64,000 bases of DNA from NCBI RefSeq assembly GCF_035918095.1, contig NZ_CP109137.1, positions 558,001 through 622,000 on the forward strand. Reading direction: 5' to 3'. Within the stretch, counting starts at the first letter, position 1, and the number at the start of each line of letters is the position of its first letter. Under the pieces are notes generated by a model, which saw nothing but the letters and a program-made list of their open reading frames with translations, made no database searches and had not been told where the DNA came from. Below, piece by piece: positions 10,003 to 21,710 of the stretch. The stretch is from Streptomyces sp. NBC_01750 (lineage in GTDB: Bacteria > Actinomycetota > Actinomycetes > Streptomycetales > Streptomycetaceae). Both the position numbers and the translations under genes were made by a program.

Positions 10003-11046
10003 GTGGCAGGGGCAGACGCATGCGGGCAGCCGACCGCGACAGCAATACCAGCATTTCCATCAGGGGCTCTGAAAAGGGGCCTGGCCGCGCTGGTGGTCGT
10101 ACTTCTTCTCGCTGCCGCCCTGGTGGGTGCCACACCGGGTAGCACCCGGATTCCGGAAGAGCTGGAGCGGACGGCCGAGGCACTGGAGTCGGGCAAGAAA
10201 GCGGTCACCGTCGTGGCGACCGTAACGGAGCCGCTCGCGCTTGGTGAGGGCAATGTGCCGCTGGGCATGCAGCGCGTCATCGATGCCAAGAGCCGGCATG
10301 GCCGCCATCTGGTGGTCGTCCAGAAGGCGCAGGACAGCGGGCAGGGTGGCGCCGTGCTCATGCTGCTCGCCGACTCTCAGGCGATAGTCCACGACAACGC
10401 CACGGTCAGTACGCTGCCTCGGGACATCCTGGAGTCCGCAAGGACGCGATCTCTCTGCGGCAGGCGCAGCCTGTGCCAACTGCTGGATGAGCGGAGAGGC
10501 CGACCGGGCAAAGTCGAAGCGTCCCAGCTCCGGTCGGATCTGCATATCCCCGCCGACGAGAAAACCGCGCTCAAAAATGCCGGAGCAGACTCCGCGACCG
10601 CCCCACTGCACACGCTCACGTTCCCGCACTCCGACCCGGCCGGCGGCATCGGACCGACCGAGATTCTGCTGACTCTCCTCGCCGCCGGCGCCGCACTGTT
10701 CTCCCTGGCGGTGCTCAGAACCCGGTACCGGGCCGCACTCGTCGGGCCCGCCCCGCCGCCGTTACGCCCGCCGAGCGGGCCATTGATGGTCCGCGTTCCT
10801 CCGGAGCCTCCCGCGGCCGCCCGCCTGGTCCCTGAAGGCCCCGTCCGCCCGGCGACCGTATGCACCCGGCTCCATCCGCAGGGCTATGTCGAGCTGGACG
10901 GCTGGCTGTACCGGGCGAGTTGGGCGGACCCGCAGCTGGCCCCGCCCGACCCTGGCGAGGTCGTCGACATCGCGGGGCAGCGGCCCGGGGATCTCCTCGC
11001 CTTCGTGCCCCGGAGCCTCGACGGCGCGGGCGGACCCGCCGGCTGA
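10003..11046 (+). CDS. Two-TM membrane protein with NfeD-like C-terminal domain
   Basis: First gene of the 10-21.7 kb operon, 347 residues. A short N-tail, TM1 (about 26-43, ALVVVLLLAAALVG), an outside domain of about 170 residues with one CGRRSLC pair, TM2 (about 218-238, ILLTLLAAGAALFSLAVL), a proline-rich linker, and a C-terminal stretch (about 288-340, GYVELDGWLYRASW ... PGEVVDIAGQRPGDLLAF) that reads like the OB-fold of NfeD proteins. GTG 10003 has GGGGG 5-9 bases upstream; ATG 9601 with a better RBS is the alternative (481 residues). TTA at 10762-10764 (codon 254) implies need for the bldA tRNA. It is likely the membrane anchor or sensor of the system (inference). Confidence 0.7.
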   Translation: MAGADACGQPTATAIPAFPSGALKRGLAALVVVLLLAAALVGATPGSTRIPEELERTAEALESGKKAVTVVATVTEPLALGEGNVPLGMQRVIDAKSRHGRHLVVVQKAQDSGQGGAVLMLLADSQAIVHDNATVSTLPRDILESARTRSLCGRRSLCQLLDERRGRPGKVEASQLRSDLHIPADEKTALKNAGADSATAPLHTLTFPHSDPAGGIGPTEILLTLLAAGAALFSLAVLRTRYRAALVGPAPPPLRPPSGPLMVRVPPEPPAAARLVPEGPVRPATVCTRLHPQGYVELDGWLYRASWADPQLAPPDPGEVVDIAGQRPGDLLAFVPRSLDGAGGPAG

Positions 11047-11154
11047 CCGGCAGCCACGCCCGCACACGGTCAGGCTCCCGCACCTGACAAGCACACAGAA
11101 CCGCGCAGAGACACCGCACCACAAGCACGCACACGACAGGGGGAACTGGATCCC

Positions 11155-11937
11155 ATGAATCCAGGAAATCCGGACCAGCCGGTCATGCCACCGCAGGACA
11201 TGCCCATCTCGTACGCCGACATCGAGATCGAGAACAACGCCCAGCGACTGCCGCTGCTGCTGTGCCTGGACATCTCCAGTTCCATGGCGGGCAAACCCAT
11301 ACGGCTGCTCAATGAGGCGCTGATCGCCTGGGGACGCGAGATCCGGGAGGACCTGGCCCTCAGCTACAGCGTCGAGATCGCCCTGGTCACCTTCGGCGGC
11401 ACGGGGATCGGAGTCTGGCAGGGCCCACATCTGCTCGACCCCCGGGCCACCGTCAGCCCCTTCGTGCCCGCCCACCAATTCCAGCCGCCGCAGCTCGCCG
11501 CATCCGGAGTCACGCTGCTGACCGAGGCGGTGGAGACCGCCATCCGCCTGGTGGCCGGGCGGAAGACACAATTGCGAGGCCTGGGCCTGCAGTACTACCG
11601 CCCACAGATCTGCCTGGTGACGGATGGCCTGCCGACGGACAGTCAGGGGCACCCCACGGACGCCTGGCGGCAGCTGGTCCCGATGCTCGCCGCCGAGCAA
11701 CAGGCCAAGCGCTTCCGTTTCTACGCCTTCGGAATCGGCGGAATCAGCCAGCGCGGACAGCAGGTGCTCAAGGAGCTGGCGCCGAAGTACCACGCCACCC
11801 TCCAGGGTTTCCCGTTCCGCGACCTGCTGCAGACGATGTCGGCGAGCGCGAGTGCCGAACAGAAGGGCGCGGAGGAAGAGACCTTCGAGCAGCTGTTCAA
11901 CCGGTTCAAGACTCAGCGTTCCGCCTGGAACTCCTGA
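11155..11937 (+). CDS. TerY-like von Willebrand factor A protein
   Basis: A 260-residue cytoplasmic vWA protein. The MIDAS metal site is intact: LLLCLDISSSMAGK (DxSxS, about 37-45), the central Thr region VTFGGTGIG, and LVTDGLPTDSQG. This form, with no signal or membrane segment, is that of TerY, the vWA member of tellurite-resistance-like systems. A PP2C phosphatase and a kinase follow directly, the arrangement known as the TerY-P triad, in which the vWA protein is thought to be a phosphorylated adaptor. ATG 11155 follows GGGGGAAC. Gap to the first gene is 108 bases, to the next 3 bases. Confidence 0.9.
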   Translation: MNPGNPDQPVMPPQDMPISYADIEIENNAQRLPLLLCLDISSSMAGKPIRLLNEALIAWGREIREDLALSYSVEIALVTFGGTGIGVWQGPHLLDPRATVSPFVPAHQFQPPQLAASGVTLLTEAVETAIRLVAGRKTQLRGLGLQYYRPQICLVTDGLPTDSQGHPTDAWRQLVPMLAAEQQAKRFRFYAFGIGGISQRGQQVLKELAPKYHATLQGFPFRDLLQTMSASASAEQKGAEEETFEQLFNRFKTQRSAWNS

Positions 11938-20000: not shown

Positions 20001-21262
20001 CCGGCAGCGGAACGGGCACGCGCGGCGTGGTCTACGGCATCGACTTCGGCACCTGGACGTCTGCCCTGGTGATACTGCGTCAGGGTCACCCCCCGATGCC
20101 GGTTCGCGACCCTGTCAGCCCCCATGGGGCGACCTCGGTACGCAGTGCCGTCTGCTTACTGCCCGATGGGTCGATGGTGGTCGGGCAAGCTGCCCAGAAC
20201 TCGCGACTGCAACGCCCGGAGCGCTTCCGGGCCGAATTCAAGAGGGAGTTCGGCGAGCCGTTCCCGCACCAGCTGGGCGAGCGTCGGTTCAGCACCGAGG
20301 AGCTGACCGCGAAGGTTCTCGGATTCCTCGTGGAACAGAGCCGCCGGGCCGTCAGCTCCGCTCCCGACCGGGTGGTGATCACGGTTCCGGCGACCTGGGA
20401 ACGCGCCAGGAGGGAGCTCATGGCAGGCGCCGCCGAGGCTGCGGGAATCCGGCCGGAGACAGTCGAAATACACACCGAACCGGTGGCCGCCGCCGTCTAC
20501 GCCCTGCACGACCACGGCATGGACCGGGACCGGACCGTCCTGGTCTACGACCTCGGCGGTGGCACCTTCGACCTGGCCATCGCCAGGGGAACCAGGGACG
20601 GTTTCACCGTCCTCGGCTCACCCGGGGGCCTGTCCGATGTCGGCGGACTGGCCATCGACCAGGCAGTGCTGGCGTTGATACGGGACCGCTGCCCCGGGGC
20701 GCTGGACTCGCTCCTCTCCGGCGGCGCGGATGCCGATGATGCCCGGGCACTGCGCCGCAGGACACAGCTCGCGGAAGCCTGCACCACTTTCAAACAGCAG
20801 CTGTCCGTCTCCTCCGAGCACTCCGACATGCTCACCATGCTGGACCCGCCGGTCGAGGTCACTCTGACCCGGGCCGACCTGCGGGAGGCGATCCGGCCGA
20901 TGCTGTCGGACACCGTCACGGAGTGCGAACGGGTGCTGCGGGCTCACGGGCTGGATTGGGGCGACCTGGATCTCATCGTCCCCGTGGGCGGCAGCTCCAG
21001 GCTCCCCATGGTCGGCGAGATGCTGACCGACCGTTCGGGGCTGCCGGTGCTGGACGTGTCGGAGCCGGAACTCGCGGTGGCCACCGGCGCCGCCTGGCTG
21101 GCACAGGGCGCGGTTCCCGCGCGCATAGCGGCGCCGCCCCCTGCTGACACACCGCCGCAGTCGCGGCCGCCAGGCGCGCTGCCGACCGGGGTCAGGGCTC
21201 TGCTGGACGCCGGTCTGACCGACCGTATGGTGCTGGAGGCGGTGCGACGTGCCCGTTCCTGA
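19997..21262 (+). CDS. Hsp70-like ATPase lacking the substrate-binding domain
   Basis: 421 residues, essentially only the actin-fold ATPase. Seen: YGIDFGTWTSALVIL, the hinge VVITVPATWERARR, VYDLGGGTFDLAIARG (about 182-195) and IVPVGGSSRLPMVGEML (about 327). After about residue 385 there is only a short proline-rich linker and a small helical end (LLDAGLTDRMVLEAVRRA), so no peptide-binding beta-sandwich or lid. It would act as an ATP switch rather than a classic folding chaperone. TTA at 20156-20158 (codon 54) suggests bldA dependence. Partner exchange factor: the GrpE-like gene upstream. It overlaps the next gene by 14 bases. Confidence 0.85.
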   Translation: MTGSGTGTRGVVYGIDFGTWTSALVILRQGHPPMPVRDPVSPHGATSVRSAVCLLPDGSMVVGQAAQNSRLQRPERFRAEFKREFGEPFPHQLGERRFSTEELTAKVLGFLVEQSRRAVSSAPDRVVITVPATWERARRELMAGAAEAAGIRPETVEIHTEPVAAAVYALHDHGMDRDRTVLVYDLGGGTFDLAIARGTRDGFTVLGSPGGLSDVGGLAIDQAVLALIRDRCPGALDSLLSGGADADDARALRRRTQLAEACTTFKQQLSVSSEHSDMLTMLDPPVEVTLTRADLREAIRPMLSDTVTECERVLRAHGLDWGDLDLIVPVGGSSRLPMVGEMLTDRSGLPVLDVSEPELAVATGAAWLAQGAVPARIAAPPPADTPPQSRPPGALPTGVRALLDAGLTDRMVLEAVRRARS

Positions 21263-21710
21263 CCTCGCGACGGAGAACGGGCTTGCGCTGTCCGGCCAAT
21301 GGCGGCGGCTGGTCGGCAAGTGGGCCTCCCGGCACCACCGGCCCTTCGAGGCCGACACCGCCTCCGTGACGCTCGAGTTCGACCATCCGCAGGCTCAGCG
21401 GGACATCAGGCTGACCTTCACCACGACCAGCAATGGGCTGCTGCTGTTGCTGGTCACGGATGACCGGTACCTGGCGGATGACCAGATCGCCTTGGCTGCG
21501 GCCGCCGCCAACGCCTGGAACATCGAGCGGTTGGTCCCCATGCTCGCGGTCTGCAATCTCGGCGGCACCACCCCTCCCTATCTGACCGGCATCCGCACGC
21601 TGCCACTGGCGTGTGTGCTGACGCAATCGGCGTTCCACACGATGGCCGACCAGTGGCTCGAGGACGCACGGGGACTGTTCAGCTGGTGCCACGAGGAATT
21701 CCGGCTGTGA
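21249..21710 (+). CDS. YbjN-like small protein
   Basis: 153 residues, GTG start inside the Hsp70-like gene's end. The pattern of alternating strands and helices (FDHPQAQRDIRLTFTTTSNG, LLLLLVTDDRY, AAANAWNIERLVPMLAVCN, LACVLTQSAFHTMADQWL) resembles YbjN/type III chaperone-like folds, where the motif N-x-W-N occurs at this place. Such proteins often bind partner proteins in stress systems. Last clear member of the operon. Family call is by pattern only. Confidence 0.6.
   Translation: MPVPDLATENGLALSGQWRRLVGKWASRHHRPFEADTASVTLEFDHPQAQRDIRLTFTTTSNGLLLLLVTDDRYLADDQIALAAAAANAWNIERLVPMLAVCNLGGTTPPYLTGIRTLPLACVLTQSAFHTMADQWLEDARGLFSWCHEEFRL

Follow-up and report, generated by a model that had tools for sequence, protein, structure and literature searches.

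A dynamin-like GTPase pair linked to an Hsp70 ATPase domain and joined to a TerY-P cassette in Streptomyces sp. NBC_01750

Results

The stretch of DNA analysed here (the window) comprises 64,000 nucleotides of Streptomyces sp. NBC_01750, positions 558001-622000 of contig 1 (8.89 Mb) in a genome of 8.98 Mb. At window positions 10003-21710 it holds eleven open reading frames that bring together two dynamin-like GTPases, an Hsp70 ATPase domain and a TerY-P triad, that is, a von Willebrand factor A (vWA) protein, a PP2C phosphatase and a kinase. An earlier note, made from the sequence alone, had described an operon-like layout, and this was borne out: all eleven frames lie on the + strand and are tightly packed, with joints that mostly overlap or span a few bases. 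In order, they encode an NfeD-like membrane protein (10003-11046, or from 10093 with the alternative start), a TerY-type vWA protein (11155-11937), a PP2C phosphatase (11941-12861), a kinase-like protein (12858-14072), an IniC-type dynamin-like protein (GTPase1, 14077-15780), a C39-like papain-fold protein (15777-16595), a GrpE-like protein (16592-17191), an unknown alpha+beta protein of 192 residues (17178-17756, or from 17199; hereafter the alpha+beta protein), an IniA-type dynamin-like protein (GTPase2, 17763-20000), an Hsp70 ATPase domain without a substrate-binding domain (SBD; 19997-21262) and a YbjN-like protein (21249-21710). The sole sizeable gap, of 108 nt, follows the first gene; 3 nt separate the TerY and PP2C genes, 4 nt the kinase and GTPase1 genes and 6 nt the alpha+beta and GTPase2 genes. 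Overlaps of 4 nt each were found at the PP2C/kinase, GTPase1/C39, C39/GrpE and GTPase2/Hsp70 joints and one of 14 nt at the Hsp70/YbjN joint, and the GrpE-like and alpha+beta genes overlap by 14 nt or are 7 nt apart, depending on the start chosen.

The gene identities proposed in the earlier note held, with some qualifications. Pfam gave clear matches for the PP2C phosphatase (PF13672, E 3.5e-36), the Hsp70 (PF00012, E 1.2e-40), the Dynamin_N domains of GTPase1 (E 3.8e-11) and GTPase2 (E 1.4e-20) and the C39-like protein (PF13529, Peptidase_C39_2, E 2e-8). By Pfam alone, the kinase (Pkinase, E 4.2e-7), the GrpE-like protein (PF01025, E 3.5e-5), the vWA protein (VWA_2, E 0.0054) and the NfeD-like protein (E 0.02, below cut-off) are weak. 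The YbjN-like protein of the window has no Pfam match and is assigned through its relatives, 5 of 18 aligned members matching PF10722 (best E 1.6e-9). An NCBIfam scan added nothing specific to these assignments.

Both GTPases carry the P-loop KRGKST, as had been noted earlier, and both resemble dynamins. Residues 41-591 of GTPase2 align to residues 32-584 of Mycobacterium smegmatis IniA (6j72, E 5.8e-25), a sequence similarity that extends past the G domain into the neck and trunk. Hydropathy analysis placed a hydrophobic stretch at around residues 472-490, with a similar one in most of the family; it lies roughly where the loop of IniA sits and is a candidate lipid-interacting loop. GTPase1 aligns to the G domain of IniA (E 1.7e-10), and by hydropathy it has no strong hydrophobic segment. 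Foldseek matched its structure model (pLDDT 84.6) to BDLP, mitofusin and IniA at E values of about 1e-10 to 2e-9, with whole-chain template-modelling (TM) scores of just ~0.3, perhaps from differing domain angles.

The Hsp70-like protein had been described as lacking a substrate domain, and this held: the PF00012 match covers profile positions 1-372 of 599, an SBD profile found no SBD, and the nucleotide-binding motifs are intact. The GrpE-like protein matches the C-terminal end of its profile (96-163 of 165) with a score of 24.0 against a cut-off of 25.8, and none of the eleven operon proteins has a Pfam J-domain match. In the C39-like protein, which begins with an acidic N-terminal tail, Cys105, His213 and Asn233/Asp234 are invariant in all ten aligned sequences. 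The alpha+beta protein has no Pfam match; 137 homologues were retrieved, and among the 120 listed those with names are called hypothetical or uncharacterised. One of its five structure models was good (pLDDT 87; the other four 57-61) and gave no PDB fold match at E 0.001, nor did alignments of this protein and of the YbjN-like protein match solved structures.

Upstream, the NfeD-like protein has transmembrane-like segments at residues 26-44 and 220-238 by hydropathy, followed by a soluble C-terminus. The vWA protein has an intact MIDAS motif (DxSxS...T...D) and the phosphatase intact Asp motifs; the vWA, PP2C and kinase motifs are kept, with small substitutions, in all five operon-linked copies, one TerY reading DTSSSM. 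The kinase scored 30.1 bits with Pkinase against a cut-off of 31.7, and its PK_Tyr_Ser-Thr match (E 3.3e-6) exceeds its own cut-off. A zinc-ribbon-like CP..H..CPWC segment and a C-terminal transmembrane-like helix (residues 384-402 in the window) recur in all five operon-linked kinases.

Since GTPase1 and GTPase2 both align to IniA, we extended the search to the phylum, scanning 396 genomes of Actinomycetota with a 26-row IniC-type alignment. This retrieved 33 places in 31 genomes at 1e-25 and 23 at 1e-60 or better, 22 of which lie outside the window. Stretches of 11-20 kb were fetched around all 22. As in all our comparisons, fetched stretches vary in length and some stop at contig edges, and gene starts are approximate, the genes having been called from codon usage by a simple program trained on the window. 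An SBD-less relative of Hsp70 was found in the fetched stretch of 21 of the 22 loci, SBD absence being judged by a profile built from six canonical DnaKs. The Hsp70 profile had been built with sequences from ten of the loci; in the 12 that were fetched later, the linkage held in 11. With five DnaK-like places in the 8.98 Mb of the window's genome, we estimate the chance of an Hsp70 neighbour at roughly 1% per 20-kb stretch. An IniA-type gene stands beside the IniC-type gene in 21 of the 22 (the exception being L131), and gene order and strand vary among the loci. Around partial, single or non-IniC dynamins, which served as controls, one stretch in ten had an Hsp70 match (L133; L086, at 3.6 kb, was omitted as too short), and around TerY genes none of nine did. 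Two genes had been called in L085; all controls were rechecked by tblastn without gene calling, with the same outcome. Among eight diverged loci of the pair or IniC type, from Streptomyces and its relatives (L016, L018 with L020, L021, L041-L045), seven had an Hsp70 gene or fusion; the eighth (L043) sits at a contig end. The linkage between the dynamins and the SBD-less Hsp70 is well supported. Canonical DnaK/GrpE genes were also seen near the dynamin pair in L076, L079, L127 and L135.

The linked Hsp70 proteins share a common build. In all ten proteins scanned, the match to the HSP70 profile stops at position 369-373 of 599. Of the 21 linked proteins, 19 have a transmembrane-like segment (19-residue mean hydropathy of 2.0 or more) behind the ATPase domain; the other two end in a WD40 propeller (L075) or are short (L129). 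The Hsp70 of L016 has a WD40 propeller as well, and that of L044 appears to. Beyond the transmembrane-like stretch, several tails are Thr/Pro-rich or resemble folded outer domains by eye. The window protein and many relatives keep intact nucleotide motifs, and a few relatives show single-position changes (for example, L035 and L075). The motifs are degenerate, with loss of the lysine and of the GGGTFD-type phosphate motif, in L076, L078, L079, L082, L120-L122 and L129, most of which come from loci resembling the mycobacterial iniBAC layout; judging by these motifs, such proteins are likely pseudo-ATPases.

Within the genus, GTPase1 relatives were detected in 11 of 392 genomes at E 1e-30 or better, and a close orthologue is present in seven of them, the window's genome being one, at 75-86% identity for the others. 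A scan of named genomes with GTPase1 yielded five Streptomyces loci, in all of which seven genes are collinear, namely those for GTPase1, the C39-like, GrpE-like and alpha+beta proteins, GTPase2, Hsp70 and the YbjN-like protein (the core). The NfeD-like, TerY vWA, PP2C and kinase genes (the cassette) stand upstream in one of the five, L012. Conservation of the gene order in other strains shows the layout to be more than chance; the genes flanking the core differ among the strains viewed. Of 382 genomes of the genus, eight have the alpha+beta protein, all of them among the 11 with GTPase1; it is a hallmark of the dynamin-Hsp70 core.

Eleven distinct close loci were compared (the window, L011-L015, L035-L038 and L040, with L039 taken as L013 and counted once). 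Viewed over 9-10 kb upstream, the triad is present in five; GrpE is present in eight and Hsp70 in ten. The eleven genes therefore do not stay together as the earlier note had supposed, the triad being missing from six of 11 loci and GrpE from three of the five that bear the triad, and the cassette also occurs alone elsewhere. The eleven genes are two modules and not one invariant set, and a single eleven-gene system, as originally stated, was rejected; the neighbourhood comparison weakened the single-system claim for the triad and strengthened it for the dynamin-Hsp70 core. GrpE is present in all six triad-less loci, and we considered GrpE and the triad as mutually exclusive substitutes. This too was rejected, because the three GrpE-less loci form a single clade in the GTPase2 tree (98/100), for which one loss suffices. 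In L038 (genome G366) the core is split, with GTPase1-C39-GrpE at 1.53 Mb and the alpha+beta protein with GTPase2 at 10.88 Mb; neither fetched stretch has an Hsp70 or YbjN gene. In L040 (8930-15543), GTPase1 and Hsp70 each run across two frames, from sequence errors or gene decay.

Of 392 genomes, 53 have a TerY relative; the four relatives with at least 84% identity, among them that of the window, all accompany GTPase1. Nine of the other 49 places were fetched, and no dynamin or Hsp70 match was seen in any of them. Six of the nine (L105-L109 and L112) have the order YbjN, NfeD, TerY, PP2C, followed by the kinase in five; YbjN relatives occur in seven of the nine. An NfeD-like homologue adjoins TerY in all five operon loci and in six of the nine others. 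The attachment of the triad to the operon, as first described, was nonetheless upheld: the junction is repeated in five loci, and the five operon-linked kinases form one clade (99/99), which is consistent with a single junction event on the basis of the kinase tree, although the TerY and core trees leave the origin of the junction unresolved.

Several observations were made around these relatives. In L015 (3507-9720) and L037 (1-4900), a second, larger dynamin (~865 residues) lies upstream on the opposite strand beside another SBD-less Hsp70 relative. Caspase- and CHAT-like peptidases, recognized by eye, lie near two core loci (L013, 20254-21696; L015, 18435-21670), as in known conflict islands. 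In L111 (7519-18518) and L112 (5894-13120), genes that by eye resemble those of Streptomyces conservons (roadblock protein, small GTPase) adjoin a diverged TerY-P cassette that includes YbjN and a second kinase. In G032 (L017, 6203-9698), a diverged TerY, a PP2C and an apparent kinase lie ~10 kb downstream of a GTPase2-GTPase1-Hsp70 set.

Dynamin and Hsp70 domains are also found in single proteins. That of L045 (1329 residues) consists of Dynamin_N (44-222), an Hsp70 ATPase domain (639-901, profile end 370) and a propeller. A search of 5.8 billion proteins, in which the best 7993 candidates were scored, listed 31 matches; 14 of these clusters carry both Dynamin_N and HSP70 by precomputed Pfam domains, twelve resembling the query and two (P0017 and P0018) having the order Hsp70-dynamin. 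Pfam was rerun on fusions P0006, P0013, P0017 and P0018. Other matches were a kinase-dynamin fusion (P0023), an Hsp70 with a partial SBD joined to a vWA domain (P0025), a caspase-Hsp70 fusion (P0030) and, from precomputed domains only, a caspase/TIR protein joined to a dynamin (P0016); these domain combinations hint at a larger family of such switches.

GTPase1 relatives of <60% identity were found on 34 of 72,556 plasmid records, two of which were fetched. Plasmid pANA01 of Anabaena sp. 90 (L134) has a single + strand run with genes for an SBD-less Hsp70 (32.7% identity to the window protein), a C39 protein (44%), the alpha+beta protein (38%), an IniA-type (31%) and an IniC-type (36%) dynamin. 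Five core parts thus recur together in two phyla, on this one example. The run also encodes a DO-GTPase (PF19975, E 2.7e-15), a DO-GTPase2 match below cut-off (PF19993, E 2.7e-4) and two unassigned proteins; at 156-6240, the Hsp70, the unassigned proteins and the DO-GTPase all end in -WF, perhaps a shared docking or degradation tag. The second record, from Nocardia farcinica (L135), has an Hsp70-profile gene, IniA-type and IniC-type genes and canonical DnaK-GrpE genes.

Discussion

The link to iniBAC is an addition to what had been noted before on this DNA. IniA matches most of GTPase2, GTPase1 is of the IniC type, profiles place both types in one operon, and iniBAC-like loci also carry an Hsp70 relative. 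The window operon differs in that the C39, GrpE-like and alpha+beta genes separate the two GTPases, that a YbjN-like protein and TerY-P are added, and that its Hsp70 motifs are intact, whereas those of iniBAC-like loci are degenerate. Pfam and NCBIfam named no IniB in the operon, where no direct IniB comparison was run, and the acidic N-terminus of the C39-like protein is without demonstrated homology. A dnaK-like gene by iniR in M. smegmatis is mentioned in one sentence of PMC5760070. According to the excerpts of PMC6715688, IniA performs membrane fission through a lipid-interacting loop in which charge mattered more than hydrophobic residues; its fission activity was relatively low, and IniC could not be studied by the authors.

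The DO-GTPase/GAP1-N2 systems of Kaur et al. (2020; PMC7159879) offer a second comparison. In the part of that paper used here, GAP1-N2 neighbourhoods include HSP70 with GrpE, a subset having HSP70 without the peptide-binding domain, and, as another theme in actinobacteria, a kinase (with zinc ribbon or transmembrane segment), PP2C and vWA; three themes are called non-overlapping, and the word 'dynamin' is absent from that text. In the window the GTPases are dynamins and two of these casts meet in one operon. Membership of the operon in a DO-GTPase system was rejected, as Pfam matched none of the eleven proteins to a DO-GTPase or GAP1 domain. The triad itself is typical of TerY-P in having a vWA protein with MIDAS, PP2C and kinase-zinc ribbon adjacent and with motifs intact, and unlike it in being attached to a dynamin-Hsp70 core and in the transmembrane tail of the kinase. 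The excerpts of PMC11090510 describe TerY-P as a non-core addition in CoCoNuTs and state a metal-sensing or phospho-switch function. The Hsp70 ATPase domain and GrpE-like protein recall the DnaK-GrpE chaperone, from which the set differs in having no SBD or J-domain match and a GrpE-like protein below the Pfam cut-off. The Leo dynamins and the Campylobacter dynamin-like protein pair are likewise bacterial dynamin-like proteins, and to our knowledge they have no Hsp70, TerY-P or C39 partner. Screened by title or abstract start, the open-licence literature held nothing on this operon or on a general bacterial dynamin-Hsp70 linkage, subscription papers being outside the scope of the screen.

From the gene set, the intact catalytic motifs, the linkage and the fusions we infer an IniA/IniC-type dynamin machine with an SBD-less Hsp70 ATPase as its regular partner, here joined to a TerY-P phospho-switch, which would remodel membranes at the expense of GTP and ATP; we hold this reading to be probable, if only just. 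GTPase2 would dock on the membrane via its hydrophobic loop and polymerise with GTPase1. The Hsp70 ATPase domain would grip no client peptides and would contact the GTPase pair directly, a contact suggested by the dynamin-Hsp70 fusions, and its ATP/ADP state may gate assembly or disassembly of the coat, with the GrpE-like protein, where present, speeding nucleotide release. Because the Hsp70 of most relatives has a transmembrane-like segment, the signal probably comes from the envelope. In the window operon, membrane input would come from the NfeD-like protein and the membrane-anchored kinase, be set by PP2C and be read by TerY. The probable task of the C39-like protein, once triggered, is to process or cross-link a component, and the alpha+beta and YbjN-like proteins may be adaptors, the latter perhaps escorting a component. 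As the predicted output, a membrane hurt by envelope stress or an invader would undergo fission, be sealed or, at high dose, be remodelled lethally. Kinship with IniA favours envelope stress; patchy distribution, the company of a DO-GTPase in Anabaena and the caspase fusions favour a role in conflict.

Some findings weigh against this reading. One locus of the 22, L127, which starts at a contig end, has only canonical DnaK-GrpE, and the Hsp70 match in L133 shows that the linkage extends beyond full IniC-type genes. Nor are the 22 loci independent: many belong to a common genus or family, they carry eight family labels, and eight of them fall in one family. The triad and GrpE are inconstant across core loci, and, given the degenerate Hsp70 motifs in eight loci, ATP cycling cannot be the general mechanism.

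More tentatively, with the odds a little short of even, we suggest that IniA/IniC-type dynamins of Actinomycetota and cyanobacteria have a third subunit, missing until now, in the SBD-less Hsp70, its core turned from a folding motor into a switch for coat assembly that takes its inputs from outer sensor domains, propellers or TerY-P kinases, and that Streptomyces may use it in an immune or membrane-damage response. A regular Hsp70-derived partner, at times fused to the GTPase, would give the drug-stress dynamins IniA and IniC a regulator and bring their control within reach of a test. Bacteria would then offer an instance of an Hsp70 ATPase acting as a dynamin switch and not as a folding machine, and the dynamins of envelope stress would be connected with the GTPase-centred conflict systems deduced by Kaur et al. 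from genome comparisons.

The locus could quite possibly serve envelope stress alone, as an accessory operon of the iniBAC kind that mends the membrane after cell-wall damage and has no immune role. The GTPase2-IniA similarity, the transmembrane-like segment in 19 of 21 linked Hsp70 proteins and the induction of iniBAC by cell-wall drugs, together with membrane cutting by IniA (both as given in the excerpted literature), all agree with this, but a rare, patchy distribution fits conflict systems better and no IniB gene was identified in the operon. Somewhat more doubtful is a GTPase-centric phage defence or cell-suicide system, in which the dynamin pair would be switch or effector, like the DO-GTPases of Kaur et al. 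(2020), and would kill or seal the hypha on infection. The related cast of GAP1-N2 neighbourhoods in the excerpts of that paper, the DO-GTPase-family genes in the same run as the Anabaena core, the joining of caspase to Hsp70 in P0030 (and, by precomputed domains only, of caspase/TIR to dynamin in P0016) and the occurrence of GTPase1 in just 11 of 392 genomes all point this way. Among PADLOC models, compared with ten of the eleven proteins (all except the alpha+beta protein), there were only LeoA/LeoBC, kinase-type and weak single-protein matches; GTPase2 matched LeoA and LeoBC (4e-17 and 1.3e-14), but these defence proteins are themselves dynamins, and the match may be merely familial. Moreover, neither a DO-GTPase nor GAP1 was found in the window operon, nor a toxin or nuclease domain. 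The phage-defence role raised in the earlier note is possible.

The sporulation role also raised there is very improbable. DynA and DynB are paired dynamins of the Streptomyces sporulation septum and a SpoIIE-type gene lies upstream of the operon, but at E 1e-30 the GTPase1 family is absent from most genomes of the genus searched and the best solved relative is IniA. That the genes are accidental neighbours in a gene-dense accessory region is the least credible reading of all: the TerY-P cassette does occur alone and flanks differ between the strains viewed, but gene order is shared with other strains, Hsp70 linkage is 21/22 against 0/9 at TerY control loci, and the fusions and the related set on a cyanobacterial plasmid already disfavour it.

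A sigma-70 scan found no promoters and gave six terminator-like matches against 3.8 expected, both results being uninformative in GC-rich DNA. The operon is flanked by a PAS/GAF-SpoIIE phosphatase gene upstream (7171-9171) and an anti-sigma-like HATPase gene downstream (22336-22812); tblastn matched neither of them in the orthologous core loci. On the - strand at 3760-6263, ~4 kb before the operon, there is a canonical dnaK-grpE pair; its DnaK shares 89% identity with a copy at 4.85 Mb, and a third copy (59%) lies at 0.80 Mb.

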